Shown here: one piece after another, positions 4,706 through 64,000 of the stretch
How the letters are laid out: every line of letters starts with the position of its first letter
Numbering within the stretch: the stretch's first letter is position 1
Assembly (NCBI RefSeq): GCF_004168035.1
Contig: NZ_SDPU01000035.1
Coordinates: 372,001-436,000 of the forward strand
Direction: 5' to 3'
Origin: Nocardioides iriomotensis
GTDB taxonomy: Bacteria > Actinomycetota > Actinomycetes > Propionibacteriales > Nocardioidaceae
DNA length: 64,000 nucleotides
The notes under the pieces: generated by a model
Seen by the model: only the letters and a program-made list of their open reading frames with translations
What the model was told of the DNA's origin: nothing
Database searches by the model: none
Made by a program: the position numbers and the translations under genes

Positions 4706-4729
4706 CGGTCGGCACCACCACCTGACGAG

Positions 4730-4760
4730 CGGGGCCTCGCGCACTCAGCGCGAGGCCCCG
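4730..4760 (+). terminator. Intrinsic terminator after the Ig-repeat gene
   Basis: A perfect 13-bp stem with a 5-nt loop (ACTCA) lies 25 bases behind the stop codon at 4705. There is no clear T-run after it, which is common in high-GC actinobacteria. It also separates the giant gene from the small gene at 4787. Confidence 0.8.
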
Positions 4761-4786
4761 GTCTCATCCCGAGGAAGGGCGGCTCC

Positions 4787-5101: not shown

Positions 5102-5705
5102 CCCGCAGCTTCTTCAGCACCGTCGACACGTGCACCCGCACGGTGGTGGGGGAGAGGAACAGCCGCCTCGCGACCTCGTCGGTGGACAGGCCCTCGGCGA
5201 GCAGCTCCATGACCTCCCACTCCCGCGCGCTCAGCTTGGCGGCCGCCGTCGACGTGCGCACGAAGCGGGGCGTGGCGGGGGCGCGGAACTCGCCGAGGAT
5301 CCGGGCGACGAGGCGCCGCGGCATTGCGGCCTCACCCTCGAGCACCCCCCGGAGCGCGAAGGGCAGCCGCGCCGGGTCGGTGTCCTTCAGCAGGTAGCCG
5401 GACGCGCCGGCGCGCAGCGAGTCGAAGAGGTCGTCCTCCTCGGCGGACTGCGTCAACATCACGACGGTGACGTCGTTGAGGCCGCGGGAGATCTCGTGCG
5501 CCGCCTGGATGCCGCTGCCGGGCATGTGGATGTCCAACAGGGCGACGTCGGGATGGTGCTCCGCCGCCAGCCGTACGGCGTCCGGTCCCGTCGCGGCCTC
5601 GGCGACGACGTCGCAGCCGCCGACCTCGAGGGCCTCGCGGATCCGGCTGCGGATACGGGCATGGTCGTCGGCGATGACGACCCGGATCGGCCGGTCGGCG
5701 GTCAC
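5058..5705 (-). CDS. NarL/FixJ-family response regulator (LuxR-type HTH)
   Basis: DNA-binding response regulator of a two-component system, about 215 residues. The receiver domain (about 1-120) shows the acidic pair (ADDH), the phospho-acceptor Asp in ALLDIHMPG, the Thr of VMLTQS and the Lys of LLKD. The C-terminal LuxR helix-turn-helix (about 150-215) is LSAREWEVMELLAEGLSTDE followed by the VRVHVSTVLKKL recognition helix. The GTG at 5705 gives a 4-base GTGA overlap with the kinase stop codon; a second in-frame GTG one codon earlier (5708) is equally readable. Kinase and regulator are therefore translationally coupled. Confidence 0.92.
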   Translation of the reverse strand: MTADRPIRVVIADDHARIRSRIREALEVGGCDVVAEAATGPDAVRLAAEHHPDVALLDIHMPGSGIQAAHEISRGLNDVTVVMLTQSAEEDDLFDSLRAGASGYLLKDTDPARLPFALRGVLEGEAAMPRRLVARILGEFRAPATPRFVRTSTAAAKLSAREWEVMELLAEGLSTDEVARRLFLSPTTVRVHVSTVLKKLRVKDRASAFEALRGQ

Positions 5706-7126: not shown

Positions 7127-7132
7127 CTTTGA

Positions 7133-7138
7133 ATGCTA
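7133..7138 (-). promoter_or_regulatory. Leaderless-type -10 element of the histidine kinase gene
   Basis: TAGCAT on the minus strand is followed by 6 bases and then the ATG at 7126. In actinobacteria this spacing puts the transcription start at the start codon. No ribosome site is visible. Confidence 0.5.
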
Positions 7139-7192
7139 AATGAGAGGTTCGTCCGGTCGATCCGTTTCGGAAATCTTCGTCGTCGCCGCGGC

Positions 7193-45755: not shown

Positions 45756-45927
45756 CCCACAGACTGCCCGGCGCGTCGTGGGGAAGCGGCGCGTCGGGCA
45801 AACCAACTTCCCACCAGTCACATCTGAAGCACCTGTTCCGCAGACTTCGCCGCGATCGACCCGCGGCAAGCACCAACAGCAGAAGCCAGCAGCACCACCG
45901 AGAATCACAGGGGAAAGGAAGCACCAC
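45756..45927 (+). other. nrdR-nrdJ spacer
   Basis: 172 bases. A GGCGCGTCGTGGGGAAGC stretch is partly repeated. No cobalamin riboswitch or gene is visible, so nrdJ control is more likely through the NrdR boxes upstream of nrdR. Confidence 0.4.
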
Positions 45928-48887: not shown

Positions 48888-49820
48888 GTGGCCGTGCCGG
48901 TTGTGGGGGAGGAGCGTGACCGTGCACTCGAAGAGGTTTTTGAAACGCTCATCGCGCTCGATCCGGATCAGTCTCGAATCGCTGCAGCGCTGCGCCGCAC
49001 CATCGATCAGTTGTACGACGGTCAAAACACGGGTCGCTACCGCTGGGATCAGCTCCACAAGACCGAAAAGACGCACTGCGGCACTTTGGTCGAGATCAAC
49101 CTGCAGCGGGAGTTCAACTTCAAGGACGGCGTCCTCCTCGACTACGAGATCGCGAAGCATCAGGTCGACTGCAAGTACAGCCAATCCAGTGGTGGCTGGA
49201 TGATCCCAAACGAGGCGCACGCGCAGGTGTGCTTGCTAGTGACAGCCGACGACGCGAAGTCGACCTTTAGCGCCGGAATTGTGCGGGCTCGCCGCGAATG
49301 GCTCAATGTGGGACGTAATCGCGACGCCAAGGCGACCCTGAGCAAGGCCGGCCGAGAAAACATCCTCTGGTTAGCGCGTAACGCACAATTGCCTCCAAAC
49401 ATTCTGCTGGGGCTCCCGGCCGATGACATCCTGGCGATCTTCGCTCCTCAATCCGGGCAGCGGCGCGTCAACGAACTATTCCGGAGGGCGCAAGGTCGCC
49501 GCATCACCCGTGGAGTGGTAGCTACGGTCGCCCAGCAGGCTGACTACATGAAGCGCGTACGCGGGAACGGCGGGGCCAGGAGTTCGCTCGCACCCGAGGG
49601 AATCATTGTTCTGGGTCACTACGGTGCACATCGGGCAGTCGGACGGTGTCTCGGGCTCGAGGAGCTGTTGGCAGGCGAAAGCATGAGTGTCCGAGTTGTG
49701 CCTGCCGACGAAGCCGACTATTGGACCGCCGAGATCGACGGACGGCTGTGGCGCGTCGCCGATGCACACGATCCGGTCGTCACGGCGCCAACGCTCCCAC
49801 CAGTGTCGGCGGCGTGGTGA
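48888..49820 (+). CDS. NaeI-type (type IIE) restriction endonuclease
   Basis: A 310-residue enzyme that follows NaeI over most of its length. Shared blocks are DQLYDGQ, QLHKTEKTHCGTLVEINLQREF, the catalytic site LLDYEIAKHQVDCKYS (Asp85, Asp94 and Lys96, matching the NaeI D-x9-CK arrangement), RVNELFRR, TVAQQADYMKRVRGNGGARS, LAPEGIIVLGH and VRVVPADE. The first half is the PD-(D/E)XK nuclease domain, the second the effector-binding CAP-like domain. NaeI cuts GCC/GGC after binding two sites; the specificity here is inferred from similarity. Ribosome site GAAAGG, GTG start. Confidence 0.92.
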   Translation: MAVPVVGEERDRALEEVFETLIALDPDQSRIAAALRRTIDQLYDGQNTGRYRWDQLHKTEKTHCGTLVEINLQREFNFKDGVLLDYEIAKHQVDCKYSQSSGGWMIPNEAHAQVCLLVTADDAKSTFSAGIVRARREWLNVGRNRDAKATLSKAGRENILWLARNAQLPPNILLGLPADDILAIFAPQSGQRRVNELFRRAQGRRITRGVVATVAQQADYMKRVRGNGGARSSLAPEGIIVLGHYGAHRAVGRCLGLEELLAGESMSVRVVPADEADYWTAEIDGRLWRVADAHDPVVTAPTLPPVSAAW

Positions 49821-49863
49821 ACGATGCCTTTAACTATCCGGGGTCGGGATACGGAGGAGAAGA

Positions 49864-51138
49864 GTGGCTGAGCTGAGTGTTGTTGAGATCTGTGCAGGCG
49901 CTGGCGGCCAGTCGCTTGGCCTGCATCGAGCCGGCTTCGACCACATGCTCTCTCTAGAGATCGACCCGCAGGCCGCCGCCACGCTCCGGCATAACCTCGA
50001 GCGAATTCAGGATCGCTCGCCGGACGTTCGCGTCGGCGACGTGGCGGACCAAGGACTGTGGAGGCCCGAGGACTACGAAGGCGTCGACCTACTGGCGGGT
50101 GGTGTGCCGTGCCCGCCCTTTTCTGTGGCGGGCAAGCAGCTAGGTAGTCAGGACGAACGAGACCTCTTCGCGTGGGCAGTCGAACTCGCCGGCCGAATCC
50201 AGCCCCGGGCATTGCTTCTCGAAAACGTCCGTGGTCTGTCAGCTCCACGGTTTGCGGGGTACCGGCAGGCAATCGCGGATCGCCTGGAGGAGCTCGACTA
50301 CGCGTCCGCGTGGCGCATGCTGCACGCCAACGAGTTCGGTGTTCCACAGCTTCGTCCGCGTTTTGTCCTCGTGGCGATGCGACCAGATTCTGCAGCGCAT
50401 TTCTCGTGGCCGACACCCCTCGAGGACTGCCCCAGCGTTGGGGACGTTCTGCGGGAGTCGATGGGCGAACGGGGATGGCGCTACGCGGACCGGTGGGCAG
50501 ACCAGGCCGTGACGATCGCGCCCACGATCGTGGGGGGGAGCAAGAAGCACGGTGGTGCTGACCTTGGTCCCACTCGGGCTAAGCGTGCTTGGGCGCAGCT
50601 GATGGTCGACGGGCACGGTGTTGCAGACCATGCCCCGACGCGCAACGACCCCTCGTTCCGAACACGAATGCCTAAGCTGACCAACGAGATGGTTGCGCGG
50701 ATCCAAGGGTGGCATCGCGGTGGTGAGGACTGGGAGTTCCTCGGCAGGAAGACGTCCACATATCGCCAGATTGGCAACGCGTTCCCTCCGCCCGTTGCGG
50801 AGGCGATCGGCAACTCGATCAACGCTGCGCTCAACGAGTCGGCGGCGGCTAGCGGTGGACTTGAGTCGACTGTTCACGATGACCTCTACAGACTTCTGAA
50901 GGGGTCATCGAAACTGCTTACGATGAACGACATCGTAAAGTCCCTCGGCCTTGGAAACGACCTATCCTCCATCGCTCGACGACTCCAAACGCTCAGCGAG
51001 GACTTCGTCCTCCATGAGATGGAGACGTCGCAGGGACTCGCATATGGACTTGGTGAGTTCAAGGCTTTCCGCGGCCAGGAAGACCACGGTCGGCACTCAC
51101 ACTTTGCTGATGCAAGAACGCGTGCTCGAGTGAGCTAG
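49864..51138 (+). CDS. C5-cytosine DNA methyltransferase with C-terminal winged-helix-like extension
   Basis: A 424-residue methylase. Motif I is VEICAGAGGQSLGL, motif IV GGVPCPPFS (catalytic Cys), motif VI ENVRG, motif VIII QLRPRFVLVA and motif X YRQIGNAFPPPVAEAIG, with a short target-recognition region before X. A further ~95 residues (LTMNDIVKSLGLGNDLSSIA, VLHEMETSQGLAYGL) look like a winged helix, not usual for these enzymes. It follows the NaeI-type nuclease by 43 bases (GGAGGAG ribosome site), so it is probably the protecting methylase of GCCGGC. Confidence 0.92.
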   Translation: MAELSVVEICAGAGGQSLGLHRAGFDHMLSLEIDPQAAATLRHNLERIQDRSPDVRVGDVADQGLWRPEDYEGVDLLAGGVPCPPFSVAGKQLGSQDERDLFAWAVELAGRIQPRALLLENVRGLSAPRFAGYRQAIADRLEELDYASAWRMLHANEFGVPQLRPRFVLVAMRPDSAAHFSWPTPLEDCPSVGDVLRESMGERGWRYADRWADQAVTIAPTIVGGSKKHGGADLGPTRAKRAWAQLMVDGHGVADHAPTRNDPSFRTRMPKLTNEMVARIQGWHRGGEDWEFLGRKTSTYRQIGNAFPPPVAEAIGNSINAALNESAAASGGLESTVHDDLYRLLKGSSKLLTMNDIVKSLGLGNDLSSIARRLQTLSEDFVLHEMETSQGLAYGLGEFKAFRGQEDHGRHSHFADARTRARVS

Positions 51139-51184
51139 ACGCATCGGGCTGCGCAGAAGCCGGAACCGGTGAAATCCTTAGCCC

Positions 51185-52444
51185 GTGTCTCAACACATCT
51201 CCGTGTCATTTGACGATCTGGCTACCAGTGATCTGGTCGTTGACGCGCTGTACGAGGGCGGACGAAGGGGGAACCGCGGCGATGATCCGATCGCGAAGCT
51301 CTTGCCCGTTGGTAACGCGGGTGGATTCCGCTTCGTAGGCAGCCCGACGGCAGGCACGGTCAGAGCGTTGGCGCTCTACACCTCGAACGCCGACGCTGAT
51401 TGGCCCGATCGTCTGGATGCAGCAACTGGCACCTTCTCTTACTACGGGGACAACAAGGCACCTGGTCGGCAGCTTCATGACACGCCCCGCAAAGGCAACT
51501 TGTTCCTGAGCCTTGCGTTCGCGTTGGTTAGCGAAGGCGTTCTTGGCCGACGCCAGGTTCCTCCGATCTTGCTGTTCGCCAAGGGTGGCCGCGGCGCAGA
51601 CGTCCATTTTCGTGGGCTCTTGGTGCCAAGTTCTCCGTTGGTGCCGGTTGACGAGCAGCTGGTCGCGATCTGGCGGAGTGCCGGAGACCAGCGGTTTCAG
51701 AACTATCGCGCAACGTTCTCGGTGCTAGACGTCCCATGTGTGTCTCGGGAATGGATCACGGCGGTGGTCAGTGGCGAAGACCCGGTTCGGCTGGCACCCC
51801 CTGCGTGGGAGAAATGGGTGCGGACTGGTGTCATTGAGCGTTTGCAAGCGCCGAAAGCGTTGGCGTTCAGGACGAGAGAAGATCAAATCCCCAAGCCCGG
51901 GGACGACAGTGAGATCGTCGCGGCGATTCATGAGCACTTCGCTGGCCGGCCGCATGACTTCGAGCAGTTCGCCGCCCAGATTTGGATGATGATCGCCCCT
52001 GCAACAGACGAAATTGAAGTAACGCGGCCTTCTCGCGACGGTGGCCGGGACGCGGTCGGACGCTACGCGATCGGTCCACCCGGCGATCTAGTGCGCATCG
52101 ACTTCGCTCTCGAGGCCAAGTGTTACGGACCTCTCAACTCCGTGGGCGTCCGCGAGATGAGTCGGTTGATCTCCCGGCTGAGGCATCGCCAGTTCGGCGT
52201 GCTAGTTACGACTTCGTACGTCAACCGGCAGGCGTACCAGGAGGTCCGCGACGATGGCCACCCTATCGCCATCGTTTCAGGCCGTGACATCGTGGAGGTG
52301 CTCAAGCGCAGGGGCTGGGGGTCTCTCAGGGCAGTTAGGCAGTGGCTCGTGACTGAGTTCCCCAGGGCACAGGTCGGTCAAGTCGAGGTCGTGACTCCGG
52401 GGGTCATCGTGGAAGTTGACGAAAGTGTGGTTCGGTCCAATTGA
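51185..52444 (+). CDS. Mrr-type restriction endonuclease with AspBHI-like N-terminal domain
   Basis: 419 residues. The C-terminal domain (about 260-360) is an Mrr-type PD-(D/E)XK nuclease: HDFEQFAAQIWMMIA, TRPSRDGGRDAVG (catalytic Asp) and FALEAKCYG (ExK). The N-terminal ~230 residues (EGGRRGNRGDDPIAKLLPVGNAGGFRFVG, WPDRLDAATGTFSYYGDN) resemble the SRA-like recognition domain of AspBHI, which cuts 5-methylcytosine DNA. If so, it attacks methylated invading DNA. The methylcytosine reading is inferred; the nuclease domain is clear. GTG start, weak ribosome site. Confidence 0.75.
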   Translation: MSQHISVSFDDLATSDLVVDALYEGGRRGNRGDDPIAKLLPVGNAGGFRFVGSPTAGTVRALALYTSNADADWPDRLDAATGTFSYYGDNKAPGRQLHDTPRKGNLFLSLAFALVSEGVLGRRQVPPILLFAKGGRGADVHFRGLLVPSSPLVPVDEQLVAIWRSAGDQRFQNYRATFSVLDVPCVSREWITAVVSGEDPVRLAPPAWEKWVRTGVIERLQAPKALAFRTREDQIPKPGDDSEIVAAIHEHFAGRPHDFEQFAAQIWMMIAPATDEIEVTRPSRDGGRDAVGRYAIGPPGDLVRIDFALEAKCYGPLNSVGVREMSRLISRLRHRQFGVLVTTSYVNRQAYQEVRDDGHPIAIVSGRDIVEVLKRRGWGSLRAVRQWLVTEFPRAQVGQVEVVTPGVIVEVDESVVRSN

Positions 52445-52467
52445 CGAGTAAGGGCGGGGACAACGAG

Positions 52468-52911
52468 GTGAACACGGACGCGCCCAGGTCCGGATCTTGG
52501 GCCTCCTCCCCGGGCGTTGCGTCTCGCATGCGTCGCCAGAAGGCGAGGGACACGCAGCCTGAGCTCGCCCTTCGTCGGCTTCTTCACAGCCGGGGGCTGC
52601 GGTACCGCGTGGATCGCGTCTTGCCACTGCCTGGGGTCCGCCGACGCGCCGACATCGTCTTTGGTCCTGCCAGAGTCGCGGTCTTCGTAGATGGCTGCTT
52701 CTGGCACGGATGCCCACTTCATGGCAACCCGGAGGTCAAGAGCAATACGTGGTACTGGCCGCAGAAGATCGAGCGCAACCGGGATCGAGATGCTGATACT
52801 GACCGTCGCCTGAGGGCTATCAACTGGCTGCCCATCCGCTTGTGGGCGCATGACGACCCCGCCGAGTGGGCCGACATCGTTACGACTGCAGTCCGGGCAC
52901 GATCCCGCTAA
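52468..52911 (+). CDS. vsr: Very short patch repair endonuclease (Vsr)
   Basis: Nicks T:G mismatches that arise when 5-methylcytosine deaminates, so it belongs with the C5 methylase upstream. The 147-residue protein has SRMRRQKARDTQPELALRRLLH, the catalytic RADIVF Asp, VDGCFWHGCPLHG (zinc/aromatic wedge residues) and WYWPQKIERNRDRD. The GTG at 52468 has a GGCGGGGA ribosome site. A TTG at 52441 would overlap the Mrr gene stop (TTGA) and add nine residues; either is possible. Confidence 0.93.
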   Translation: MNTDAPRSGSWASSPGVASRMRRQKARDTQPELALRRLLHSRGLRYRVDRVLPLPGVRRRADIVFGPARVAVFVDGCFWHGCPLHGNPEVKSNTWYWPQKIERNRDRDADTDRRLRAINWLPIRLWAHDDPAEWADIVTTAVRARSR

Positions 52912-52935
52912 TAGCCGGGGCCGCGAACAGCTCCG

Positions 52936-53466
52936 CTATCCGGCAGCTTGCCTAACAATTCGCATTGCCATGTCTGGGAACTCAACAGCGGACCGAAAAT
53001 GCTTCTCGATCTCGGAGGCGGTTGCCTCGAGCGTGGCTGTAGCGAGATTTTCGTGCACTATAGTGTTTCGGGCGGTACAAAGAAACATGAAGCTCTGACC
53101 AGCTTTATCAAATGGTTCGTTATCGGCTGCCTGAGCAGCATACAATTCATGGCAGGCGGTCCCGAAGCTCTTGAAGAAGCTTGTCGGCTTAGGCGAATCG
53201 AAATTGAACCATCGAAAAAACTTGCGCTCCAGAGACTCGCGTCGGATGAATTCGTAGGGCGTGCTGCCAAGTCCCGCGAAATACTCGTGCATGTGAAAGG
53301 ACATTAGCGATTCGAGGTGCGACGCCGCCGCAAGTACGAACAATTTGCGGAAGTGTGTGTCCAGGGCGACGTGGTCGCTAACCGCGTCGGCTCCTAGCGA
53401 GTTCGAGAGAGAATGGTAGTCGTTAAAGAGTTGGTCCACTGGGCCGGCGGATGGCGGGAAGTCCAT
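52936..53466 (-). CDS. HEPN-domain protein (MAE_28990-like) paired with DUF262
   Basis: A 176-residue all-helical protein. The HEPN RNase motif R-x4-H is visible as CTARNTIVHEN (about 137-142), with an upstream VLAAASHLESLMSFHMHEY helix. HEPN proteins of this size often accompany DUF262 proteins and are thought to be RNases that stop growth on infection. The gene begins 8 bases behind the DUF262 stop, so the two are co-transcribed. It is at low GC compared with the chromosome around it. Confidence 0.7.
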   Translation of the reverse strand: MDFPPSAGPVDQLFNDYHSLSNSLGADAVSDHVALDTHFRKLFVLAAASHLESLMSFHMHEYFAGLGSTPYEFIRRESLERKFFRWFNFDSPKPTSFFKSFGTACHELYAAQAADNEPFDKAGQSFMFLCTARNTIVHENLATATLEATASEIEKHFRSAVEFPDMAMRIVRQAAG

Positions 53467-53474
53467 GCCGTGGC

Positions 53475-54605
53475 CTATCCGACATGCTCTGCGGCGGCCC
53501 GCAGCCGGGCGCGAACGTTGACCGTCTTAGTACTTCCTTCTTGCAGCGAGTTGACAAAGCGTTCATCGGCGGCGAGTTGGATCACCTGCTCGTAGGTAAC
53601 GGATGCTCTGGAATTAGCCCATAAGGTTGCGACGACCGCTTCGAAAAGAAGCGGGCTAAATCGACCACTTCGTCGAAATGCCTCTGGCCCCGCCTGGTGG
53701 CACTGTTCGATTACGTGGCGAAGCCGCTTTTCGACGTCTGCTGCCCGATCTTGCGGCCATCCTCGTGCCGCTACGCAAAACGAGTTGATAAAAGTCGTCA
53801 TAGGGCTTGAATAGATGTCGGATTTCATCGCTAGAGCGACCGAACGCAGGAGGATCTCGGCATCTTGCATTCGAGAGTCGGGCTCTTGCCTTCCAATGAG
53901 TTTGCGCCAGGAAGAATCGTGATTGATTTCATCAATGAGACTCATCAACTCAGAGCGATACAGCGATGCACGAATTTCCTGGGGGGCTAGGTTTACGCCG
54001 CCGCTGTTGAGGCGGTTGAAGATCTCGTACATGGCGTCATTGCCACGGGGGCTGACCTGCTTCACGACGACATTGCGCAACGCTCGAAGATCAAGCGTAG
54101 GCTTATATGTGTCAAGCTGCGTGTACTTCAATTTGTGGAATCGGTTCACGGATTGCGATTCGGGTGTTGAAAGATTCAGCGCGAAGTCTTGGAAAGCGGA
54201 GTCGTCAGCCAGCGCGGCTTCATCAAGTGGCCCGTTGCGAAGAAGGGCACGCAGATGACCACGCCTGGAAGGACGCGGAAAGCGTCCCTTCAGGTAAAAG
54301 TAGATAGTCAGAAGGCGCTGTTGCCCGTCGATCACGAGGTATCGATTTCGTTCTTCCTCATAGAGGAAGATTTGAGGTACGGGAAGCCCGACTAGTAGCG
54401 ATTCGATGAGTCGTGACGCTCGTTTTATGTCCCACACATAATTGCGTTGAAAGTACGGGATTTGGATGGCCCCGGCTTCCATGTAGTTGCCGATTGTCAG
54501 AACGTTCCAGTCGTTGGGCGATGACAGGATGTCAAACTCTGTCGGCGTGGCCTCATCTAGGTCGTCGATTTCGTCGCTCGCAACCCAATCTTCACCCTCC
54601 GACAT
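53475..54605 (-). CDS. DUF262 (ParB-like/GmrS-type) domain protein
   Basis: 376 residues. The DUF262 core (about 35-200) has the motif IPYFQRNYVWDIKRASRLIESLLVGLPVPQIFLYEE followed by VIDGQQRLLTIY, the DGQQR signature of the ParB/Srx-like NTPase fold of GmrSD type IV restriction subunits and Swt1-like proteins. The rest is helical, without the DUF1607 nuclease half, so the nuclease partner is probably the HEPN protein. The ATG at 54605 (GAGGGGA ribosome site) is preferred to a longer in-frame reading. Base composition is clearly less GC-rich than flanking genes. Confidence 0.85.
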   Translation of the reverse strand: MSEGEDWVASDEIDDLDEATPTEFDILSSPNDWNVLTIGNYMEAGAIQIPYFQRNYVWDIKRASRLIESLLVGLPVPQIFLYEEERNRYLVIDGQQRLLTIYFYLKGRFPRPSRRGHLRALLRNGPLDEAALADDSAFQDFALNLSTPESQSVNRFHKLKYTQLDTYKPTLDLRALRNVVVKQVSPRGNDAMYEIFNRLNSGGVNLAPQEIRASLYRSELMSLIDEINHDSSWRKLIGRQEPDSRMQDAEILLRSVALAMKSDIYSSPMTTFINSFCVAARGWPQDRAADVEKRLRHVIEQCHQAGPEAFRRSGRFSPLLFEAVVATLWANSRASVTYEQVIQLAADERFVNSLQEGSTKTVNVRARLRAAAEHVG

Positions 54606-54887
54606 CGTGCTCCCCTCGTTGGACGCATGCAGACTGCAAAGTCGCCAAGTGAACGTGACGCACGTGAGCTTAGCTGGCTCTGTCCAGGGCAACGCCCAAC
54701 GACGCACCGCTACACACCGCCGGCGAGCCAATGAGGGTCCACGTGAGGTGATTGAAGTGACCCTCCGAACCGCTTTCGCGCGTTCCTCGGAGATTCAGGC
54801 CGCGTTGGTCTAACCTTGCCTTCTCAAGCCTTACGAAGGTTGTGTACCGCGGGGGAATATGCCTTTGACTGCGTCACGAGCATCCAC
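54606..54887. promoter_or_regulatory. Divergent control region of the two defence modules
   Basis: 282 bases between the minus-strand DUF262-HEPN pair and the plus-strand DISARM-like operon. Both promoters must lie here. A ten-codon open frame (54859-54891) ends in an ATGA overlap with the first operon gene; its GGGGGA is too close to its ATG for a confident call. No operator-like palindrome stands out. Confidence 0.45.
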
Positions 54888-55886
54888 ATGACAGTTGCAT
54901 TTTCGCTGGCTGAGGACCCGGTGGCGGAGAGCATGCCGGCGCCGTGGATCGGACCGCTGATCGCTCTCGGGGCGCGGGCGGCGCGTTTTGCCCCCAAGGT
55001 CACGAATCGCCAACTTGTCGTGGCGGTTTCCCTTCCTCAACGTGACTTCGCGGCAACCCTTATCGCCGCTGGCTGGGTAATGGCCCAACCGGCGCCCGAC
55101 TTGCCGGATCCACTGGAGATCTTGCGGGCGATCGAGCCGGGCACGGTCCTGCGAGTCGTCACTGAGCGCGACGTCATCCTGGATCAATTCAGGTGTCTCG
55201 ACGAGGCGAAGACCCCGCCGCGTCTCCACCTGTCGAGCTCGCAGTGGCAGGTGCCGAAGATCCGGGCACTTCAGGTCGTCAACGGCGTTCTGCTCGACAA
55301 GCCGCTTCGGATGGCGCGTCCCCAGCCAGGCGCGATGGGGCGACTCGCACGAATGACGGATGGCTGGGACTCCTGTTTGGCGGCCCCCACGACAGACCTC
55401 GCCATTATTGGCACCCGCATCTGGCTTCACGAGGATCTCGACGCCTTCCTAAGTCGCGAAGGAGAAGCGGAGGCAGAGAAGCCCAAAGAGCTGGTCGAGG
55501 ATCTTGCCAAAGCGAAAGAGAAGGGCAAGCCGTACAAGGTGGGGTTCGGGCACGGTGCCCTGCTCGACGTGGTGCTGCCCGAGTCGGGGAAGTCGGCGAC
55601 AAGTTTCACCAAGGTCTATTCAGCAGCCCGGCTAGCCGACATGCTACCGCTCCCAAGCGCACTCAGCGCGGCAATCCTCGATGGCAGCGGTGCAATCAAA
55701 TATGTGGCAGAGATCGAGACGTCTGTCGTGATCTGCATCCTGGACCGCTCTGTTGCCGACGAGACGGCAGCTGAGATGGTGGTGCAGTTGCGCAACACCC
55801 GTGGGGAGCCACTGTCCCTTACCGAGGACCTTCGTTGGCGCCCGCCAGCTGGGGTCGAAGCCCTCGCGTTCACGGTGGCGCTGTGA
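54888..55886 (+). CDS. Unrecognised first gene of the DISARM-like operon
   Basis: 332 residues from the ATG at 54888 (a TTG at 54816 would add 24). No family is recognised with certainty. Visible parts: LVVAVSLPQRDFAATLIAAGWVMAQ, GTVLRVVTERDVILDQF, a charged helix (EGEAEAEKPKELVEDLAKAKEKGK) in the middle, then AAILDGSGAIKYVAEIETSVVICILDRS. Soluble, with alternating strands and helices. It ends in a GTGA overlap with the next gene. Size and order suggest it could be the N-terminal part of a DrmE-like function, but that is a guess. Confidence 0.6.
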   Translation: MTVAFSLAEDPVAESMPAPWIGPLIALGARAARFAPKVTNRQLVVAVSLPQRDFAATLIAAGWVMAQPAPDLPDPLEILRAIEPGTVLRVVTERDVILDQFRCLDEAKTPPRLHLSSSQWQVPKIRALQVVNGVLLDKPLRMARPQPGAMGRLARMTDGWDSCLAAPTTDLAIIGTRIWLHEDLDAFLSREGEAEAEKPKELVEDLAKAKEKGKPYKVGFGHGALLDVVLPESGKSATSFTKVYSAARLADMLPLPSALSAAILDGSGAIKYVAEIETSVVICILDRSVADETAAEMVVQLRNTRGEPLSLTEDLRWRPPAGVEALAFTVAL

Positions 55887-57397
55887 GCCGAATCGATGCG
55901 CTGAACCAGCGCTACGCCGCATGCGCCAACCTCGCGGAAAGCGGCGTCGAAATCGTTGCCGTCGGCGACCCGGCCGGCGCACGATTCAACGCCGCCGTCC
56001 GCCGTCTCTTGGTGCTGCTCAAGGACGAGGGTGGCGGCTATCTGGATGATGTCGTTGGCGCCGCGAAGGCGCTGCGCTGGCGGCAGATCACCCAGCCCCA
56101 GCCCCTTGACTTCAATCCCGGAATGCTCGAACTGGCAGGCGAGGTGAGCAAACACACCGCGAGGCTTCGGGGGGCAATCGGCGATCAGGCGTTGCTTGAT
56201 GAGCTCGCGGCAGCGGCCGTCGAGGTGGCTGCGACTGACCCCGTCGCCGGCACCTTGCTACTGCATTCATGCGAGGAGATTGGCTCCGAATCGTGCGTCG
56301 TGATCGCCGCTAGCAAGGCCGCCGCCGCAGGGCTGAAGCCTTGGCTGCGCGACCACGGCGTCTTGGTGCTCACGGCGGGTGAACTCGAACGCGACCAACC
56401 CAAGAGCGAACAGGCATACGTCATCGGCCCTCCGAGGTTCTTTCGGTCGTCGTTGGTGACGGCGCCGGTGACGAGTGGGATCACTTTCATCCTGCCCGCG
56501 TGGTTCGGCGACCGGGGCGTGCCCCGATCGGCGATCGCTGCATATGCCGAAGGAGCGATCCGCATCGAGGCACGCGTGTTCACCGAGGGCGACACGACCG
56601 AGCCGGAGCTGGATCTCCCAGGCGACGCCGAGGACGAGAATGAGTTCCTTCCGCAGCCGGCGTGGGGTCATCGGCAATCAGGCGACCGTGAACCGACTAG
56701 CGAGGAAGTAGAAGCGCGCAAGGTGCTGCTCAGCGGCAACCTCGCGATGTGGCTCGACGATGGGGAGCGCATCCGCTCGCTCGACCCTGCTCAGCCAGTC
56801 GGCGAGCGCGTCACCTACACGGAGGTTCCCGCTGTCCGAGCGGGCACCTATCTGCTCCTGCGCCAAGGCGCGACCGAGCGTGGCGCGCTGTACCAGGCCG
56901 CCATCGCCCGGGTAGCCCGCGGTGAGGTCATACACCAGGCTCAGGCGGCGTGGAAGCACCTTCTCACCGACAGGCTGCACGAGGCCGGCTACCGGCAGGT
57001 CGTGAAGCAGTTGCGGACTGCAGGGGTCATGGCAGCTGACCAGGCGCGTGCGTGGACGACCCCACACCTCATCCGGCCGCACAGCGACCAGGACTTCGAA
57101 CGCTTGCTGCAGTGGCTCGGCATCAACACCCAGCCGACGTTCGGATATGCGTCAATGCTGCGGAAGACCCTCTATCAGGTGAGTGCTGAAATCGGAAAGC
57201 AACTTGAAGCAGCCGTTTCAGCCGCTGACCTTTCGGAGCTGGAGACCACCGGGTACCTCAGCCTCGATGTCAAAGCAGAGGGCTTCCGGGGCATTCTGGC
57301 CACCCGCGTCCTGGCGATTTCACCCTTTACGGAAATCGTGCCCCGGCACGATGCGAGGGTGCCTTTTGAAGATCGGAGTGGACAGTGGCTCGAATGA
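55883..57397 (+). CDS. Unrecognised second gene of the DISARM-like operon
   Basis: 504 residues. Residues about 90-235 (LLLHSCEEIGSESCVVIAASKAAAAGLKPWL, VLVLTAGELERDQPKSEQAYVIGPPRFF, SGITFILPAWFGDRGVPRSA) look like the C-terminal lobe of a helicase-like fold without the catalytic motifs. The rest is helical with an acidic linker (about 240-275). It may act with its upstream neighbour as a two-part DrmE-like protein; together they total 836 residues. It overlaps both neighbours by 4 bases. Confidence 0.6.
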   Translation: MSRIDALNQRYAACANLAESGVEIVAVGDPAGARFNAAVRRLLVLLKDEGGGYLDDVVGAAKALRWRQITQPQPLDFNPGMLELAGEVSKHTARLRGAIGDQALLDELAAAAVEVAATDPVAGTLLLHSCEEIGSESCVVIAASKAAAAGLKPWLRDHGVLVLTAGELERDQPKSEQAYVIGPPRFFRSSLVTAPVTSGITFILPAWFGDRGVPRSAIAAYAEGAIRIEARVFTEGDTTEPELDLPGDAEDENEFLPQPAWGHRQSGDREPTSEEVEARKVLLSGNLAMWLDDGERIRSLDPAQPVGERVTYTEVPAVRAGTYLLLRQGATERGALYQAAIARVARGEVIHQAQAAWKHLLTDRLHEAGYRQVVKQLRTAGVMAADQARAWTTPHLIRPHSDQDFERLLQWLGINTQPTFGYASMLRKTLYQVSAEIGKQLEAAVSAADLSELETTGYLSLDVKAEGFRGILATRVLAISPFTEIVPRHDARVPFEDRSGQWLE

Positions 57398-59097
57398 TGC
57401 CCGCCTTCTGCCCGGACGATGCGCCACCGGGGGAGAAGGCCGTCTACGCGGCGCTACAGGAGAGCAGCGAAACCGGCGATTGGATGGTGCTCCACTCGCT
57501 CGGTATCGCCGCCCACGTCCGCCAAGTCGAGGGTGAAGCTGACTTCGTCGTGATCGTCCCTGGTGCTGGCATCCTCGTCATCGAGGTAAAGTCCCATCAA
57601 TCAATTGACCGCCGCAGTGACGGAACCTGGAAGCTCGGGAACGACGCACCCACCGCACGGGGACCGTTCCAGCAGGCCAGTGGCGCGATGCACAGCTTGC
57701 GCGACTATCTGGAAAAGATGAGCGTCGACCTGCGGTCAGTGCCGATGTTGTCGGCTGTCTGGTTCACCGGTGTCCGCGCCCGCGCGATGCTGCCGCCTAA
57801 CCCGGAGTGGCACGACTGGCAGGTACTGGACTCGAAAGACCTAAAGACGGCATCGAGCGCAATCCTGCGGACGCTCGCCGCCGGGACCAAGCACCTCGAC
57901 GACAAGATCAAGTACTTCGCGTACGGCGGCGTCGGCCCGGACGGAGAAGCTACAGACAAGATTGCCAGAATGCTTCGCCCCAAGTTCGAGCTGGCCACCG
58001 TCGCCGGAGACCGCAGGCGCGCCCGCGAGTCTCAGTTGATCTCTTTCATCGAAGAACAGTTCCTCGCCCTCGACGCCGTGGCCGAGAACGGCAGCGTGTT
58101 GTTCTCGGGGCCAGCCGGGTGTGGGAAAACCTTCCTCGCCATGGAGTCTGCCCGCCGCGAACTGGCGACTGGCAAGCAAGGATGGCTTCTCTGCTTCAAC
58201 CGCTTCCTCGGCCACCGCCTGAAGCAGGACATGGCTGACCTCGACGGCCTGACGGTTGGCACCTTCCACCAGGAGTTGCTCCGCCTCGCCGGGCTCGCCC
58301 GTGCGCCCGACAACCCGACCTCCGAATTCTGGAACGAGGTACTGCCGGAGCGGGCCATGGAGGCACTCATTGACGGTGGTGCATCGCTGACCAGCGACTT
58401 CCTGATCGTCGACGAGATTCAGGACATCGCCACCGAGCCTTACCTGGACATCATGGATTTAATGGTCGATGGCGGGCTGAAGGCAGGACGGGTGCTGCTG
58501 TTCGGGGACTTCGAGCGGCAGGCGATTTTTGAGAATGAGACGGGGCGCGAGCGCCTCCGCGCGCGTGCGCCGTACATGACGAGTCACAAGCTAATGCAGA
58601 ACTGCCGCAATCTGCCGCGCATCGGCTACCAGGTGAACCTGCTCAGCCACCTCGAACCGGGTTATCAGCAGTTCCGCCGCCTCGACGATGGCGTGGACCC
58701 TGAGTTTCGCCAATACCGGGCAAAGCAGGACCAGTCCGCCCTGCTTGTTTCGGCCATCCGCGGCCTAAAGGACGAGGGATACGAGCTCAACGAGATCGTC
58801 GTGCTCAGCCCACAGCGCGACGGCTCTACAGCGACTACCACGCAAGACCCGTGGCTCCGGCAGATCTTGAAGCCCGCCGACGGGCTGCCCTCCCGGGCTG
58901 GACAGGTTCAGTACTCGACCATCCATGCCTTCAAGGGGCTGGAAGCGCCGGCGGTTGTCGTCACCGACCTCGACCAATCTGCGACCACAGACAACTTCGA
59001 TTCGTTGCTTTACGTCGGACTCACGCGAGCAACTGATCGACTCATCGCCCTCATCGAAAGAAGCACGCTCAGGAGAGCTGTAGGAGGCACCGCATGA
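57394..59097 (+). CDS. NERD nuclease - UvrD/Rep-type helicase fusion
   Basis: 567 residues. The N-terminal NERD domain (about 10-120) has a nuclease-type site, GEADFVVIV followed by VIEVKSH (Asp...ExK). The helicase part has Walker A GPAGCGKT (about 242), DEIQD (about 339), the QNCRN segment, HAFKGLEAP and LYVGLTRATDRL, which are SF1A motifs. The enzyme likely unwinds and cleaves DNA. The ATG at 57394 overlaps the previous stop (ATGA); a GTG three codons earlier is also possible. It replaces the SNF2-type DrmD of class 1 DISARM in position. Confidence 0.85.
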   Translation: MMPAFCPDDAPPGEKAVYAALQESSETGDWMVLHSLGIAAHVRQVEGEADFVVIVPGAGILVIEVKSHQSIDRRSDGTWKLGNDAPTARGPFQQASGAMHSLRDYLEKMSVDLRSVPMLSAVWFTGVRARAMLPPNPEWHDWQVLDSKDLKTASSAILRTLAAGTKHLDDKIKYFAYGGVGPDGEATDKIARMLRPKFELATVAGDRRRARESQLISFIEEQFLALDAVAENGSVLFSGPAGCGKTFLAMESARRELATGKQGWLLCFNRFLGHRLKQDMADLDGLTVGTFHQELLRLAGLARAPDNPTSEFWNEVLPERAMEALIDGGASLTSDFLIVDEIQDIATEPYLDIMDLMVDGGLKAGRVLLFGDFERQAIFENETGRERLRARAPYMTSHKLMQNCRNLPRIGYQVNLLSHLEPGYQQFRRLDDGVDPEFRQYRAKQDQSALLVSAIRGLKDEGYELNEIVVLSPQRDGSTATTTQDPWLRQILKPADGLPSRAGQVQYSTIHAFKGLEAPAVVVTDLDQSATTDNFDSLLYVGLTRATDRLIALIERSTLRRAVGGTA

Positions 59098-62000
59098 GCG
59101 GACTCGAAGCCCGCGCCATCATCGAAGCCGAGTTGCGACGCGAGCTATTCGGACCCCTCGGAGACGAGGAACCCGCTGGAAGGCCGGTCGACTGCTCCAG
59201 CGGCACGATCACCTTCGCCACCGCCGAGGAGAGCCGGGGCCAGTTCCACGACGGCACCAGTAAGCAGGAGATCCTCACAATCGGGACGCCGCTGTCTCGG
59301 TACGGCATCGGCGTGCTCTACAGCGGAGCAGCCGTGGGCGGTACGGCCATAGGCGAGGCTAATGGATACGACGTCGACCTGACCGGCTTCCCGGGCGTAG
59401 CCACTAGCGAAGAAGACCCCGACGGCCCGCCGGTCGAGATCAAGGGATCGCTCCGCCATGACGTAGCCGACTCCGACGATTTCGACCTGACGGACGCTAA
59501 CAGGTTCAAGCCGTCCGCGATGGCCATCTCCTTTCAGTGCCGCGTCCCCGCTACCGGCTCGCTGCACGTAAGAGTTGTCGGCGCCCACTACGAAAAGTTA
59601 AGCGTCCACATCCCCGGAGTCAGCAAGCCAGTTGACTGGTGGCGCCGCCGCCCCTTCGCGCTCGTCGGCACCGTGCCGGGACGCGTGCTCCGGGACGAAA
59701 TCAACCGTCTGAAGATCGTGAGTACCAGCCCGGAGGGCGACGTACCGGGCATCGCCCCCACGACGCGCATCTTCAGTCGACCCGTTCCAGGGGAGCATGA
59801 TCCTGACCTGCGGCTCGTGACCGTCGCGGTGGTCAACAACGTTTTGGGTACCGGGCCGAGCAGCGCCTTATTCCAGATGGGCTTCACCGTCACCCCAGCG
59901 GACGGTCTCGTGATCGAGCCATACCCCGAAGTCGAGCTCCCTGACCGAAACGACGAGGACCAATCCATCGATCTGCTGTACCGCAACAAGCGCACCTACG
60001 CGATTGGGCATGGGTGCGCTGCTGAATGGGACGGTGGTGCACGGTCACCGGTGCCACACGTTCGGGCGGTGGCGATGCCGGCTTTCGAGGTGGTCAGCCT
60101 GACACCGAACATCTACCGCACGGATGCAGAGGGCAACTACTTGTTGGACACCAAAGGTCAGCGCCAGTCGGTAACGGTCAGCATGAAGGCCTTGGCTGAC
60201 GGAACCAACGAGGGCGCGGAACAGGTAGAGACCGTGCTCCGGCTCTACGACGAGTGGATCGAAGCCAGGAGGGCTGAGATCGACGACCTCCCCGAGCGAT
60301 TCCGCCCGGCGGCTACACGTCACATGGAACTGGCGGGTGACGCACTCAAGCGGATGCAGGTTGGCTGGGACTTGGTGGGCTCAAACGACGTCGCGGCCCG
60401 GGCGTTCCGTTGGGCCAACGAGGCGATGTTCTATCAGCAGGTTCGTTCCAACTTCCCGCTGCGAGAGGTCGAGCGTGGCCGCGACGACGTGCTCCGAGTC
60501 AAGGGCGTTCACCCCCAGCCGACCATCCCCGAGGGGAGGGGGACCTGGCGTCCCTTCCAGATCGCCTTCATCCTCGCCAGTCTGCCGGAGTTGGTCGAGC
60601 CGACTCGAAAGACTCGCTCGCTCGTCGACCTAATCTTCTTCCCGACTGGTGGCGGTAAGACCGAGGCATATCTCGGCGCGTGCGCGATCAGCCTGCTAGC
60701 TCGGCGCCTGAGGAATCCGGAGGACGTCGGCACGGACACTTTGATGCGGTACACGCTGCGGCTATTGACCGCGCAACAGTTCCTGCGCGCTGCCTCGCTG
60801 GTGTGCGTTCTGGAAGACATTCGCGACCAGAACGCAGAAACGCTCGGAGAATCGCCGTTCGGGATCGGAATCTGGCTCGGTGGATCATCGACCCCCAACA
60901 GCTGGAAGAAGGCCGTCGATGTGCTGGCCAAGCTCCGCCGCAACCCACACGAGCAGAACCTCTTTCTCCTGCTGCGCTGCCCGTGGTGCGGGACTCAGAT
61001 GGGCACGAAGCCGAAGGGCAGAGGCGGACAGGACGTCATCGGGTACGAGCAAGTCGGGCAGAAGGTTTCATTGCGCTGCGTCGACTCCCAGTGTCGCTAC
61101 TCCCGGAGATCCGGTCTGCCCGTTCATGTGGTCGACGAAGACATCTACGCAGTGCGCCCCTCCATTGTGATCGGCACCGTCGACAAGTTTGCCATGATGG
61201 CTTGGCGTCCTGAGGCGCGGAACCTCTTCGGTTTCGATGACCACGGCGAGCGGGTGCTTTCGCCGCCCGGCCTGATCATCCAAGACGAGCTGCACCTCAT
61301 CTCCGGGCCACTCGGCTCCATGGTGGGGCTGTATGAGCCCGTCATCGACGAGCTGTGCACCGACCGTCGCGGCGAGGCACCCATCCCGCCCAAGATCATC
61401 GCCTCGACCGCCACCATCCGGCGGTTTGAGGACCAAATCAAGGGACTTTTCGGTCGTCAAGAAGTGGCGCTATTCCCGCCTCATGGCTTGGAGGAGGGAC
61501 ACTCCTTCTTCGCCGAACCGGCTCGGCTTCCGGATGGCACGCTGGAACGGGGACGCCGCTATATCGGCGTCATGAGCGCCTCGCTCGGCTCACTGCAGAC
61601 TGTCCAGACCCGCGTTGCCGCAGCCACCCTCCAGGGTGCCACCAAGGTGCCCGAGGAAGACCGCGATGGATACTGGACCAACCTCAATTTCCTAAACTCC
61701 TTGCGCGAGCTCGGTAACACCGTCTCCCTGCTGGAGTCCGACGTCCCTGACTATCTGACTGGCCTCGTGCGCCGCGACGGCATCGATCCGCGTTGGCCGA
61801 ACCGCACCATGGAGCTGACGTCCCGGCGCCGTTCGGATGAGATCCCCAAGGCGATCGAGCAGCTTCAAGTTCGCTATGTGCCGGACCAGCAGCGCCAGGA
61901 CGCTGTCGACATCTGCCTCGCCTCGAACATCATCGAGGTCGGGGTCGACATCGACCGCCTCGGCCTGATGACCATCGTCGGCCAGCCAAAGACCACCGCG

Positions 62001-62591
62001 CAGTACATCCAGGTCAGCGGCCGCGTCGGTCGACGTGCGGATGTCAGCCCCGGACTGGTCATCACCGTCTACGGTGCCGCCAAGCCCCGTGACCGCAGCC
62101 ATTACGAGCGCTTCCGGACATACCATCAGCAGCTCTACGCCCAGGTCGAGCCGACCTCAGTGACGCCTTTCGCTACACCGGTCCTGCGTCGGGCGCTCCA
62201 CGCAGCCGCCGTGGCGTACGTCCGCCAGACCTCGCCCGAGGACCTTCCTCCATACCCGTTTCCCGCCAACGGGTACCGGGAGGCGATCGAGCTTCTCCGC
62301 GAACGCGCGCTTATTGCCGACAAGGGGGAAGTGCCTGTGCTGGAGCGCATGGCTGAAAAGCGCGCCCGCCAGTGGGACGGCTGGGAGCGGACGATCTGGG
62401 AAGCCAACCCCGCACCGTGGGGTGACCCCAAGCAGGGGCTCATGCGCTACGCCGGCACGCTCCCAGATCTCGACAGCAAAGCCACCATATGGGATGTGCC
62501 AACCAGCATGAGAAACGTCGATGCTGAGTGCCGACTAGCAATCTCGATGGCCTACATCTACGCCGATGCCGCCACGGAGGACGGACTATGA
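59094..62591 (+). CDS. drmA: DrmA, DISARM SF2 helicase
   Basis: Core motor of DISARM. 1165 residues: a ~480-residue N-terminal region, then Walker A FFPTGGGKTEAY (about 517), a zinc-binding insert with Cys pairs (LLRCPWCGTQM, LRCVDSQCRYS) and GTVDKFAMMAW, DELHLISGPLGS (about 729), ASTATIRR and, in the last third, VGVDIDRLGLM with QYIQVSGRVGRRA. This motif order and the zinc insert are characteristic of DrmA. It starts in the previous stop (ATGA) and ends in the same way with drmB. Confidence 0.92.
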   Translation: MSGLEARAIIEAELRRELFGPLGDEEPAGRPVDCSSGTITFATAEESRGQFHDGTSKQEILTIGTPLSRYGIGVLYSGAAVGGTAIGEANGYDVDLTGFPGVATSEEDPDGPPVEIKGSLRHDVADSDDFDLTDANRFKPSAMAISFQCRVPATGSLHVRVVGAHYEKLSVHIPGVSKPVDWWRRRPFALVGTVPGRVLRDEINRLKIVSTSPEGDVPGIAPTTRIFSRPVPGEHDPDLRLVTVAVVNNVLGTGPSSALFQMGFTVTPADGLVIEPYPEVELPDRNDEDQSIDLLYRNKRTYAIGHGCAAEWDGGARSPVPHVRAVAMPAFEVVSLTPNIYRTDAEGNYLLDTKGQRQSVTVSMKALADGTNEGAEQVETVLRLYDEWIEARRAEIDDLPERFRPAATRHMELAGDALKRMQVGWDLVGSNDVAARAFRWANEAMFYQQVRSNFPLREVERGRDDVLRVKGVHPQPTIPEGRGTWRPFQIAFILASLPELVEPTRKTRSLVDLIFFPTGGGKTEAYLGACAISLLARRLRNPEDVGTDTLMRYTLRLLTAQQFLRAASLVCVLEDIRDQNAETLGESPFGIGIWLGGSSTPNSWKKAVDVLAKLRRNPHEQNLFLLLRCPWCGTQMGTKPKGRGGQDVIGYEQVGQKVSLRCVDSQCRYSRRSGLPVHVVDEDIYAVRPSIVIGTVDKFAMMAWRPEARNLFGFDDHGERVLSPPGLIIQDELHLISGPLGSMVGLYEPVIDELCTDRRGEAPIPPKIIASTATIRRFEDQIKGLFGRQEVALFPPHGLEEGHSFFAEPARLPDGTLERGRRYIGVMSASLGSLQTVQTRVAAATLQGATKVPEEDRDGYWTNLNFLNSLRELGNTVSLLESDVPDYLTGLVRRDGIDPRWPNRTMELTSRRRSDEIPKAIEQLQVRYVPDQQRQDAVDICLASNIIEVGVDIDRLGLMTIVGQPKTTAQYIQVSGRVGRRADVSPGLVITVYGAAKPRDRSHYERFRTYHQQLYAQVEPTSVTPFATPVLRRALHAAAVAYVRQTSPEDLPPYPFPANGYREAIELLRERALIADKGEVPVLERMAEKRARQWDGWERTIWEANPAPWGDPKQGLMRYAGTLPDLDSKATIWDVPTSMRNVDAECRLAISMAYIYADAATEDGL

Positions 62592-64000
62592 GCACCGGAG
62601 CAATGCGGCGAGCCCAGCTCGTCACCCCTTTCGGCGTCGGTGCAATGAGCGTGCTCGTCAACGGCACCTCGGTGATCACCGCCGGGCTCGATCACTGGTA
62701 TGAGTCCGGTGACGCCAGCTCGCTCGCTCTGGAGGAGTACCAGGAGCACGACTGGCGGCTCGAAGCGCGCCTCCGAGTCTCGGAGTTCCGGCTGCCCCCA
62801 GACTTCCGCTACCAGGGACAGGGCAACGACAACCGAAACGTCAAGCTGACCGTGCCGGTGCTGCGTTTTCCCCGCTGGTGCTTCTGCATGTTCTGCAAGC
62901 GAATGGAACTCTCCACCCTCACCATGCAGCAGCCCATGGTCTGCAAGGACAAGAAGCACGCTGACTGGAAGTACAAGCCCCGCATGTCGCAGGTTCCGTT
63001 CGTCGCGGTCTGCGCTGATGGGCACCTGGATGACTTCCCGTTCGACAAATGGGTGCACCGAGCACATCGGCCGTCGTGCAATGGGACTCTGCGCTTGAAG
63101 TCCCTCGGGGGCGGTGGCCTTGAGGGTCAGCGCGTGGTGTGCGATGGCTGCCAGAGGGAGAGGACGCTGCGAGGCATCACCGAAGCTCGCTTCGTCAACG
63201 GCGAAGAACACAGCAACCTGAGCGACCAGCTCTCGTCGCCCGACGATCCGTACCTCTGCACGGGAGCCCGGCCTTGGCTAGCGAAGCTCGAAGGTGCCTG
63301 CGGCCAGCCCACGCGCGGAGCCCTGCGCGCGGCGGGCAACGTCTACTTCCCTAAGGTTGAGTCCTCGATCTACCTGCCGCGCAAGGAGGGTGCAGTCAGC
63401 GAGGAAATGCACGAGCTGATGCGCCACCCGGCTGTTAGCGGCACTATGCGAACCCTCCACAGTATTTTTGGTGCCGAACTCGACGTCGAGATGCTCCGTG
63501 CCCAGTTGCTCAAGAACGTTCCGCCCGAGCTCTTCGGCCCGATCTCCAACGAAGAGCTAATCGCTGGCTACTGCGATCTCCTTGGCGTCGGCGAGGACGA
63601 ACCGAAGTCGGGCGAGGAGTCCGACGCCGAGCTGCTCACCGGCGACGACGAGTGGCGTTACCCGGAGTTCCAGCACATCCGCGAGACTCCGAAGGACGAC
63701 TACCTGACGGCAACCAACCCCGGCATCCACGCCGACCTCCACCCCCATCTGGAGCGGGTCCGCTCGGTCGATGTCCTCCGCGAAACCAGAGCGCTGCGCG
63801 GCTTCACCCGGGTCCGGGACGATGTGCTGAAGCTAAGTGTAGGCAAGAAGTTGCTGCGGCGAGAGCCGCTTCCGCCGGTCCAAGACTGGCTGCCCGCCTA
63901 CGTCGTCAAGGGCGAGGGCATCTACTTCGAACTCGATCCTGGGCGCCTGGCAGCCTGGGAAGCCCGAGCCGAGGTACAAGCCCGCGCCCAGAAGATCACC
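62588..64000 (+). CDS. drmB: DrmB, DISARM DUF1998 protein (3' end cut by window)
   Basis: Partner of DrmA. The 471 codons seen have the DUF1998-protein start RRAQLVTPFGVGAM, a Cys-rich zinc site (FCMFCKRMELS, MVCKDKKHADW) and VCADGHLDDFPFDKWVHR, all typical of DrmB. The C-terminal DUF1998 part would lie beyond the window. ATGA overlap with drmA. What follows (DrmC-type phospholipase-D nuclease or another gene) decides the system's type. Confidence 0.9.
   Translation, partial: MSTGAMRRAQLVTPFGVGAMSVLVNGTSVITAGLDHWYESGDASSLALEEYQEHDWRLEARLRVSEFRLPPDFRYQGQGNDNRNVKLTVPVLRFPRWCFCMFCKRMELSTLTMQQPMVCKDKKHADWKYKPRMSQVPFVAVCADGHLDDFPFDKWVHRAHRPSCNGTLRLKSLGGGGLEGQRVVCDGCQRERTLRGITEARFVNGEEHSNLSDQLSSPDDPYLCTGARPWLAKLEGACGQPTRGALRAAGNVYFPKVESSIYLPRKEGAVSEEMHELMRHPAVSGTMRTLHSIFGAELDVEMLRAQLLKNVPPELFGPISNEELIAGYCDLLGVGEDEPKSGEESDAELLTGDDEWRYPEFQHIRETPKDDYLTATNPGIHADLHPHLERVRSVDVLRETRALRGFTRVRDDVLKLSVGKKLLRREPLPPVQDWLPAYVVKGEGIYFELDPGRLAAWEARAEVQARAQKIT

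Follow-up and report, generated by a model that had tools for sequence, protein, structure and literature searches.

Within a stretch of 64,000 nucleotides of the Nocardioides iriomotensis genome (G000:C29:372001-436000, contig NZ_SDPU01000035.1; hereafter the window, in whose coordinates positions are given unless a locus is named), five consecutive plus-strand genes at 54888-64501 are likely to constitute an anti-phage operon of the Defence Island System Associated with Restriction-Modification (DISARM) that is closest to class 2, with DrmE made as two proteins and DrmC absent, its mechanism and defensive role being assigned by homology. The original prediction had proposed a new DISARM class or a related system, and the gene set indeed proved DISARM-like and in agreement with neither class 1 nor class 2, but a replacement of DrmE by unrelated proteins was not supported. 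Since gene 2 is by homology the C-terminal half of DrmE and gene 1 is probably the N-terminal half, the system was placed on the class 2 side, and its relatives in several phyla suggest an unnamed, class-2-like branch of DISARM.

Organization and coding evidence of the operon

The operon opens with gene 1 (54888-55886, 332 amino acids (aa), ATG start), which probably encodes the N-terminal half of DrmE, and gene 2 (55883-57397, 504 aa, GTG start), which corresponds by homology to the C-terminal half. These are followed by gene 3 (57394-59097, 567 aa), encoding a NERD nuclease domain joined to a UvrD-type superfamily 1 (SF1) helicase, by drmA (gene 4; 59094-62591, 1165 aa), encoding a YprA-family superfamily 2 helicase, and by drmB (gene 5; 62588-64501, 637 aa), encoding the DUF1998-type partner of DrmA and extending 501 bases beyond the end of the window. 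All four junctions are the 4-base ATGA or GTGA overlaps that had been read from the letters at 55883, 57394, 59094 and 62588. In eight relatives 30 junctions were computed, of which 22 overlap by exactly 4 bases, and the sequence letters reveal two further ATGA overlaps, at gene 3 of loci L007 and L008; the remaining six extend from an overlap of 13 bases to a gap of 20 bases, and one of these, at gene 3 of L027, was computed from a position other than a start codon. Because 4-base overlaps recur at 22 + 2 of the 30 junctions, the tight coupling exceeds chance. Substitutions in genes 1-3 are concentrated at third codon positions (0.20, 0.13 and 0.55 over the three positions for gene 2 against L007), and thus all three genes are coding.

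A probable DrmE in two pieces

Genes 1 and 2 had originally been described as two unrecognised proteins, which holds for gene 1 but not for gene 2. Neither product matched a PADLOC model, gene 2 was also without an NCBIfam match, and the DISARM_DrmE equivalog NF038323 was not matched. Nevertheless, a gene 2 profile (A7, 13 rows) aligned by hhalign with the 880-aa protein of L041, itself a DrmE-family protein (263 bits against DrmE_fam, cut-off 80), at 95% and E 2.2e-8, columns 8-486 falling colinearly on residues 344-864. With HMMER the same profile scored 21.4, 9.6 and 15.7 bits against the corresponding proteins of L041, L020 and L019, respectively, none of 500 shuffles reaching as high in any of the three cases; the colinear match to the L041 protein was also delimited as residues 351-865. 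Among individual members, the window protein matched Pfam DrmE_C below the cut-off (E 9.5e-4), its relative in Nostoc L015 exceeded that cut-off (35.5 vs 27) and matched DrmE_fam positions 453-802 of 838 at 68.8 bits, below the cut-off of 80, and the relative in G212 (L036) matched positions 642-830 at 32.5 bits.

The assignment of gene 1 as the N-terminal half is probable and comes from length and position. The two products together (332 + 504 aa) are about as long as the DrmE_fam model (838), 343 residues precede the gene 2 match in the L041 protein, close to the length of gene 1, and in L041 a single DrmE gene occupies the place of genes 1 and 2 and is followed by a NERD-helicase gene, drmA and drmB, with a methylase gene beyond on the other strand. 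It is rather unlikely, in our estimation, that gene 1 instead encodes an unrelated subunit such as a sensor, which would leave only gene 2 derived from DrmE and make the system a DISARM containing one genuinely novel core gene. Such a subunit would agree with the lack of any family match for gene 1 in the PADLOC, Pfam and NCBIfam scans and with the negative outcome of its sequence comparisons with DrmE, in which the gene 1 profile scored no better than many shuffled sequences against L041 (equalled or exceeded by 188 of 500) and L020 (by 224 of 500) and left L019 and L031 unmatched. The lengths and the L041 arrangement argue against it, as does the co-occurrence of genes 1 and 2 in 12 of 12 assessable loci.

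Neither product contains a Walker A motif. The predicted structures were weak (mean predicted local distance difference test scores of 57.5 for gene 1 and 61.3 for gene 2); the gene 1 model retrieved nothing useful from the PDB, and the best PDB matches of the gene 2 model were XPB helicases, at E 0.019 at best and none under 0.001, while the gene 2 profile matched no PDB sequence. These models give a hint only that the gene 2 product might be helicase-like without an ATP site.

Other arrangements were seen ahead of drmA on plasmids. In Priestia megaterium (L025, 6104-8575) three small genes (330, 206 and 278 aa) precede drmA, and since the third exceeds the DrmE_C cut-off (28.8 vs 27), DrmE may in this case be divided among three genes. 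Hypothetical proteins of 801 aa in Lactiplantibacillus (L031, 6447-8852; no DrmE_C match) and of 864 aa in Hymenobacter (L053, 6049-8643; weak DrmE_C match, E 0.0047) are encoded directly before drmA-drmB.

The DrmA-DrmB core and the NERD-helicase

That DrmA and DrmB are recognisable was borne out by comparison with the solved structures, the drmA product matching 7s9v_A at E 9.1e-140 and the drmB product 7s9v_B at E 7.8e-73. The drmA product further matched PADLOC DrmA at E 4.6e-206, and the drmB product exceeded the NCBIfam DrmB_fam cut-off (423 bits vs 240). The operon thus contains the core by which DISARM is recognised, a DrmA helicase and DrmB encoded by two adjacent genes. An acidic segment of DrmA (62 residues, net charge -11) starts near residue 77; by alignment offset its place is approximately that expected for the Serratia loop (176-232), a correspondence of position only. 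Of 31 DrmA rows, a simple pattern picked out a similar segment in 9 and failed to do so in the remaining 22.

Gene 3 had been read as a NERD-UvrD-type helicase, and in Pfam both NERD and UvrD_C_2 indeed scored above their cut-offs on its product. The window protein and 13 of 13 aligned relatives retain the D and ExK residues of the nuclease together with Walker A (at residue 239 of the window protein) and Walker B, and the last helicase motif drifts in some of the relatives. In PADLOC, residues 1-555 matched RTasNERD-Hel at E 1.7e-29, and the protein matched C3a187 at E 4.9e-17.

Distribution of the gene set

The gene order was sought in other genomes by searches with genes 2, 1 and 3, not drmA, which yielded 13 loci besides the window; leaving aside L012, whose contig ends in gene 2, 12 loci are assessable. 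The G246 locus coincides in its coordinates with L008, the two being taken as one, and L038 and L046 are repeats of L041. Genes 1 and 2 lie upstream of drmA in all 12 loci, which belong to Actinomycetota, Cyanobacteriota and Deinococcota, and drmB is present in 10, the sequence of L009 and L015 ending before its position. The NERD-helicase gene stands between genes 1-2 and drmA in eight: those of Lentzea (L006), Nostocoides (L007), Nocardia (L008), Amycolatopsis (L010) and Micromonospora (L011), the plasmids of Rhodococcus opacus (L013) and Deinococcus psychrotolerans (L026/L027, spanning the record start), and G212 (L036). It is missing from a contig of a metagenome-assembled genome (L009), two Nostoc plasmids (L014 and L015, a transposase gene separating genes 1 and 2 in L014) and G292 (L037), and because of these 4 of 12 relatives the NERD-helicase is not a fixed core part.

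For gene 1 as for gene 2, leave-one-out profiles confirmed each of the 6 distant members (0 of 500 shuffles as high in each case), the weakest being gene 1 of L037, which scored 14.4 bits where the best shuffle reached 7.4; the Priestia locus L025 was kept out of the gene 1 profile alignment A6 at 15% identity, which was not trusted. Homologues of the first three genes occurring mostly away from drmA and drmB would have spoken against the original prediction. This is not the case for genes 1 and 2, and for gene 3 the point is answered in part, at least 10 of 18 plasmid records matching it having a drmA match within about 2.5 kb. Among the papers searched, none was seen to name a system with this order.

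The split-type gene set is rare: gene 2 was found only in its own genome among 197 sampled relatives, and in three others among 396 genomes of the phylum, one of them being L008. A scan of viral contigs with the gene 2 alignment gave 39 pattern matches and no relative, and the L041 DrmE had no match in plasmids. The genus mates G002 and G003 offered no clean empty site; in both, the match to the window stops where the gene at 45778-48819, which we take by eye to be nrdJ-like, ends, and the counterpart of the right-hand flank gene in G003 sits elsewhere in that genome.

Phylogeny of DrmA

A midpoint-rooted tree was built from 31 DrmA proteins, leaving out L009, L012 and L015, in which DrmA is cut or absent; L037, L025, L019, L020, L031, L051 and L053 are long rows in it. 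One group (99/98) comprises nine split-DrmE rows with NERD, two without it and the row of Priestia, and the fused L041 is its sister (81/99, not starred). Five class 1 rows constitute a separate group (100/99), and four loci with the NERD gene after drmB a third (100/100). The gene set hence largely follows the DrmA lineage. The split-plus-NERD state requires at least two changes on the tree, so that gain or loss of NERD took place at least twice; NERD-helicases have joined DrmAB on more than one occasion.

Two further arrangements were observed around drmA-drmB. On Rhizobium and Azospirillum plasmids (L022, L023 and L028) the order is UvrD-type helicase, drmA, drmB and NERD-helicase, without an annotated drmC, and the DrmA proteins form with that of L029 a tree group of their own (100/100). 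On plasmids of Deinococcus gobiensis, Streptomyces fungicidicus and Photobacterium (L021, L030 and L032) a small AAA or UvrD-like helicase gene follows drmA-drmB, the three falling into one tree group (100/99), and L021 has an additional NERD-helicase gene before drmA.

Absent DISARM genes and the genomic neighbourhood

Since the window ends within drmB, drmC and methylase genes were sought past 64000, and neither was found up to 18 kb past the window by open reading frame (ORF) inspection and searches for DrmC and 5-methylcytosine (5mC) methylase. Across 16 loci (the window, its 13 relatives, L041 and the Priestia locus), in 12 of which the sequence after drmB was covered, no relative of DrmC, DrmD or DrmMI was detected, and PLDc_2 had no match on contig C29. 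In the controls, leave-one-out profiles recovered the omitted DrmC gene of class 1 in 4 of 4 cases, and with DrmD and DrmMI queries from L048/L049 relatives of both were retrieved from 4 of 4 further class 1 loci, one DrmD only weakly. According to the account of DISARM in PMC9142583, the candidate nuclease DrmC, a PLD-type protein, is dispensable and often missing, and it is thus a weak criterion of membership. A 5mC methylase gene lies near the operon in 10 of the 16 fetched loci.

In the window this gene (49864-51138, plus strand; Pfam DNA_methylase E 6.8e-59) lies outside the operon beside a NaeI gene, and its product matched DrmMII models at E 4.6e-27, DruM2 and MTase_II models matching far better. 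It belongs to a plus-strand row at 48888-52911, just upstream of the operon, which encodes a NaeI-type restriction enzyme (Pfam NaeI E 2.9e-113), the 5mC methylase, an AspBHI-type methyl-directed nuclease and Vsr. Between this row and the operon, on the minus strand at 52936-54731, lie genes for a GmrSD_N (DUF262) protein, matching PADLOC NsnA at E 2.2e-55 and PD-T4-2_A at E 3.2e-37, and a HEPN-like protein (E 1.2e-4, below cut-off), which likely represent a second defence pair. The locus is rich in restriction and defence-like genes, and one might conceive that the operon acts jointly with the NaeI-type restriction set, Vsr and the GmrSD_N-HEPN pair in a single larger system. The R. opacus plasmid L013 would accord with this, NaeI, 5mC methylase, Vsr, DUF262 and HEPN genes adjoining its operon in another order and on another strand, as would L007 with NaeI and methylase; however, queries for NaeI, methylase, Vsr and the AspBHI-type nuclease had no match in the fetched flanks of L006, L014, L015, L025, L026/L027 and L037, and such a joint system appears highly improbable.

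Past drmB, in the own-genome stretch L004 (position 2501 of which is window 64501), the first convincing genes lie on the minus strand at 4620-5918 and 5885-7147, the latter presumably encoding a pyridoxal phosphate-dependent decarboxylase-like protein, as judged by eye. Upstream of the Lentzea operon (L006, 772-4084) are genes for nucleotidyltransferase-like, E1-like and JAB-like proteins, which from a reading of the ORF list we take to resemble a cyclic-oligonucleotide-based anti-phage signalling system (CBASS).

Comparison with known systems

The class 2 set that PADLOC requires, as listed in PMC9252829, consists of DrmA, DrmB, DrmC, DrmE and DrmMII. The present operon shares with it DrmA, DrmB, at least the C-terminal half of DrmE and, often, a nearby 5mC methylase, but differs in having DrmE in two genes, an added NERD-helicase, no DrmC and a methylase outside the operon. 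With class 1 (drmD, drmMI, drmA, drmB and drmC; L048, L049 and L054) it has in common the DrmA-DrmB core as adjacent genes, whereas relatives of DrmD, DrmMI and DrmC are lacking and DrmA falls into a different tree group. Gene 3 resembles the NERD-helicases of defence-associated reverse transcriptase (DRT) systems (RTasNERD-Hel in PADLOC) over residues 1-555; those, by their PADLOC name, accompany reverse transcriptases, in contrast to the DrmAB and DrmE pieces found here. The Alphaproteobacteria loci L022, L023 and L028 likewise combine DrmAB with a NERD-helicase, but there the UvrD-type gene comes first, the NERD gene follows drmB and DrmA lies in another group (100/100).

TALON and ARMADA, as characterized in PMC12458937, also possess a YprA-family helicase, and TALON has in addition a NERD nuclease with TPR-CSD and TBP genes. 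In the systems described there, the DUF1998 part usually forms one protein with the helicase and other partners accompany it, whereas DrmA and DrmB are separate here. With regard to ARMADA, queries from class 1 DISARM revealed no relative of DrmD or DrmMI at the window locus. No Pfam match to TPR, CSD or TBP was found in the ten proteins at 49864-63998, the wider flanks not being scanned for them.

Proposed mechanism and significance

By homology, the operon probably works like DISARM, and a role in phage defence is inferred by analogy. Serratia DrmAB, as reported in PMC9142583, is restrained by a trigger loop and loads on 5'-overhang DNA, its ATPase activity being lower with methylated DNA. 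Carried over from that complex, DrmA and DrmB would form the translocating core and load on incoming DNA whose 5' end is single-stranded; the two pieces of DrmE, both lacking a Walker A motif, would probably serve as a non-catalytic adaptor on the DrmAB complex, and the NERD nuclease-helicase would likely be the DNA-degrading arm in place of DrmC. The last role is suggested because the active-site residues are retained, the gene stands within the operon and no other nuclease was recognised in it. Self DNA would probably be spared by its structure, perhaps together with cytosine methylation by a separate methylase such as that at 49864-51138, although this part is speculative.

Several observations weigh against the classification and the mechanism. 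The gene 2 profile failed on the candidate DrmE of L031 (66 of 500 shuffles as high), and gene 1 showed no sequence similarity to DrmE (hhalign 0.3%). DrmA scored below the NCBIfam DISARM_DrmAS cut-off (821.5 bits vs 950), as did 7 of 9 other scanned DrmA proteins, and the two above it are class 1 proteins. The DrmA tree is without any canonical class 2 DrmA, because NF038323 gave one weak match in 296 genomes. The methylase is missing from the fetched flanks of 6 of the 16 loci, and NERD from 4 of 12 relatives, so that the decisive nuclease may be another one.

This last point raises an alternative which we consider unlikely, if somewhat less so than an unrelated gene 1, namely that the NERD-helicase is a passenger defence gene and that the working unit is split DrmE-DrmA-DrmB, with host nucleases degrading the DNA. 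Besides the four relatives without it, the matches of gene 3 to RTasNERD-Hel and C3a187 show that NERD-helicases occur with other systems, and borrowing of host nucleases by DISARM is among the proposals of PMC9142583; in the other direction, the gene lies inside the operon with 4-base overlaps, its active-site residues are retained, and the order including it holds from Actinomycetota to Deinococcota. A more far-reaching view, to which we give a little less than an even chance, is that of a third DISARM class, in which a two-chain DrmE adaptor on DrmAB would recruit the NERD-SF1 helicase as the degrading arm, the split-DrmE lineage spanning at least three phyla and the NERD-helicase being an interchangeable effector that DRT and other DrmAB systems also use.

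For the DISARM family, these results indicate that curated models under-call this branch, PADLOC being silent on genes 1 and 2 and DrmA falling below the NCBIfam equivalog cut-off. How activated DISARM destroys DNA is an open question, and PMC9142583 defers the roles of DrmD and DrmE to future work. A natural branch that has no DrmC, carries a NERD-helicase within the operon and has DrmE in two pieces makes the identity of the cutter and the roles of the DrmE halves testable.

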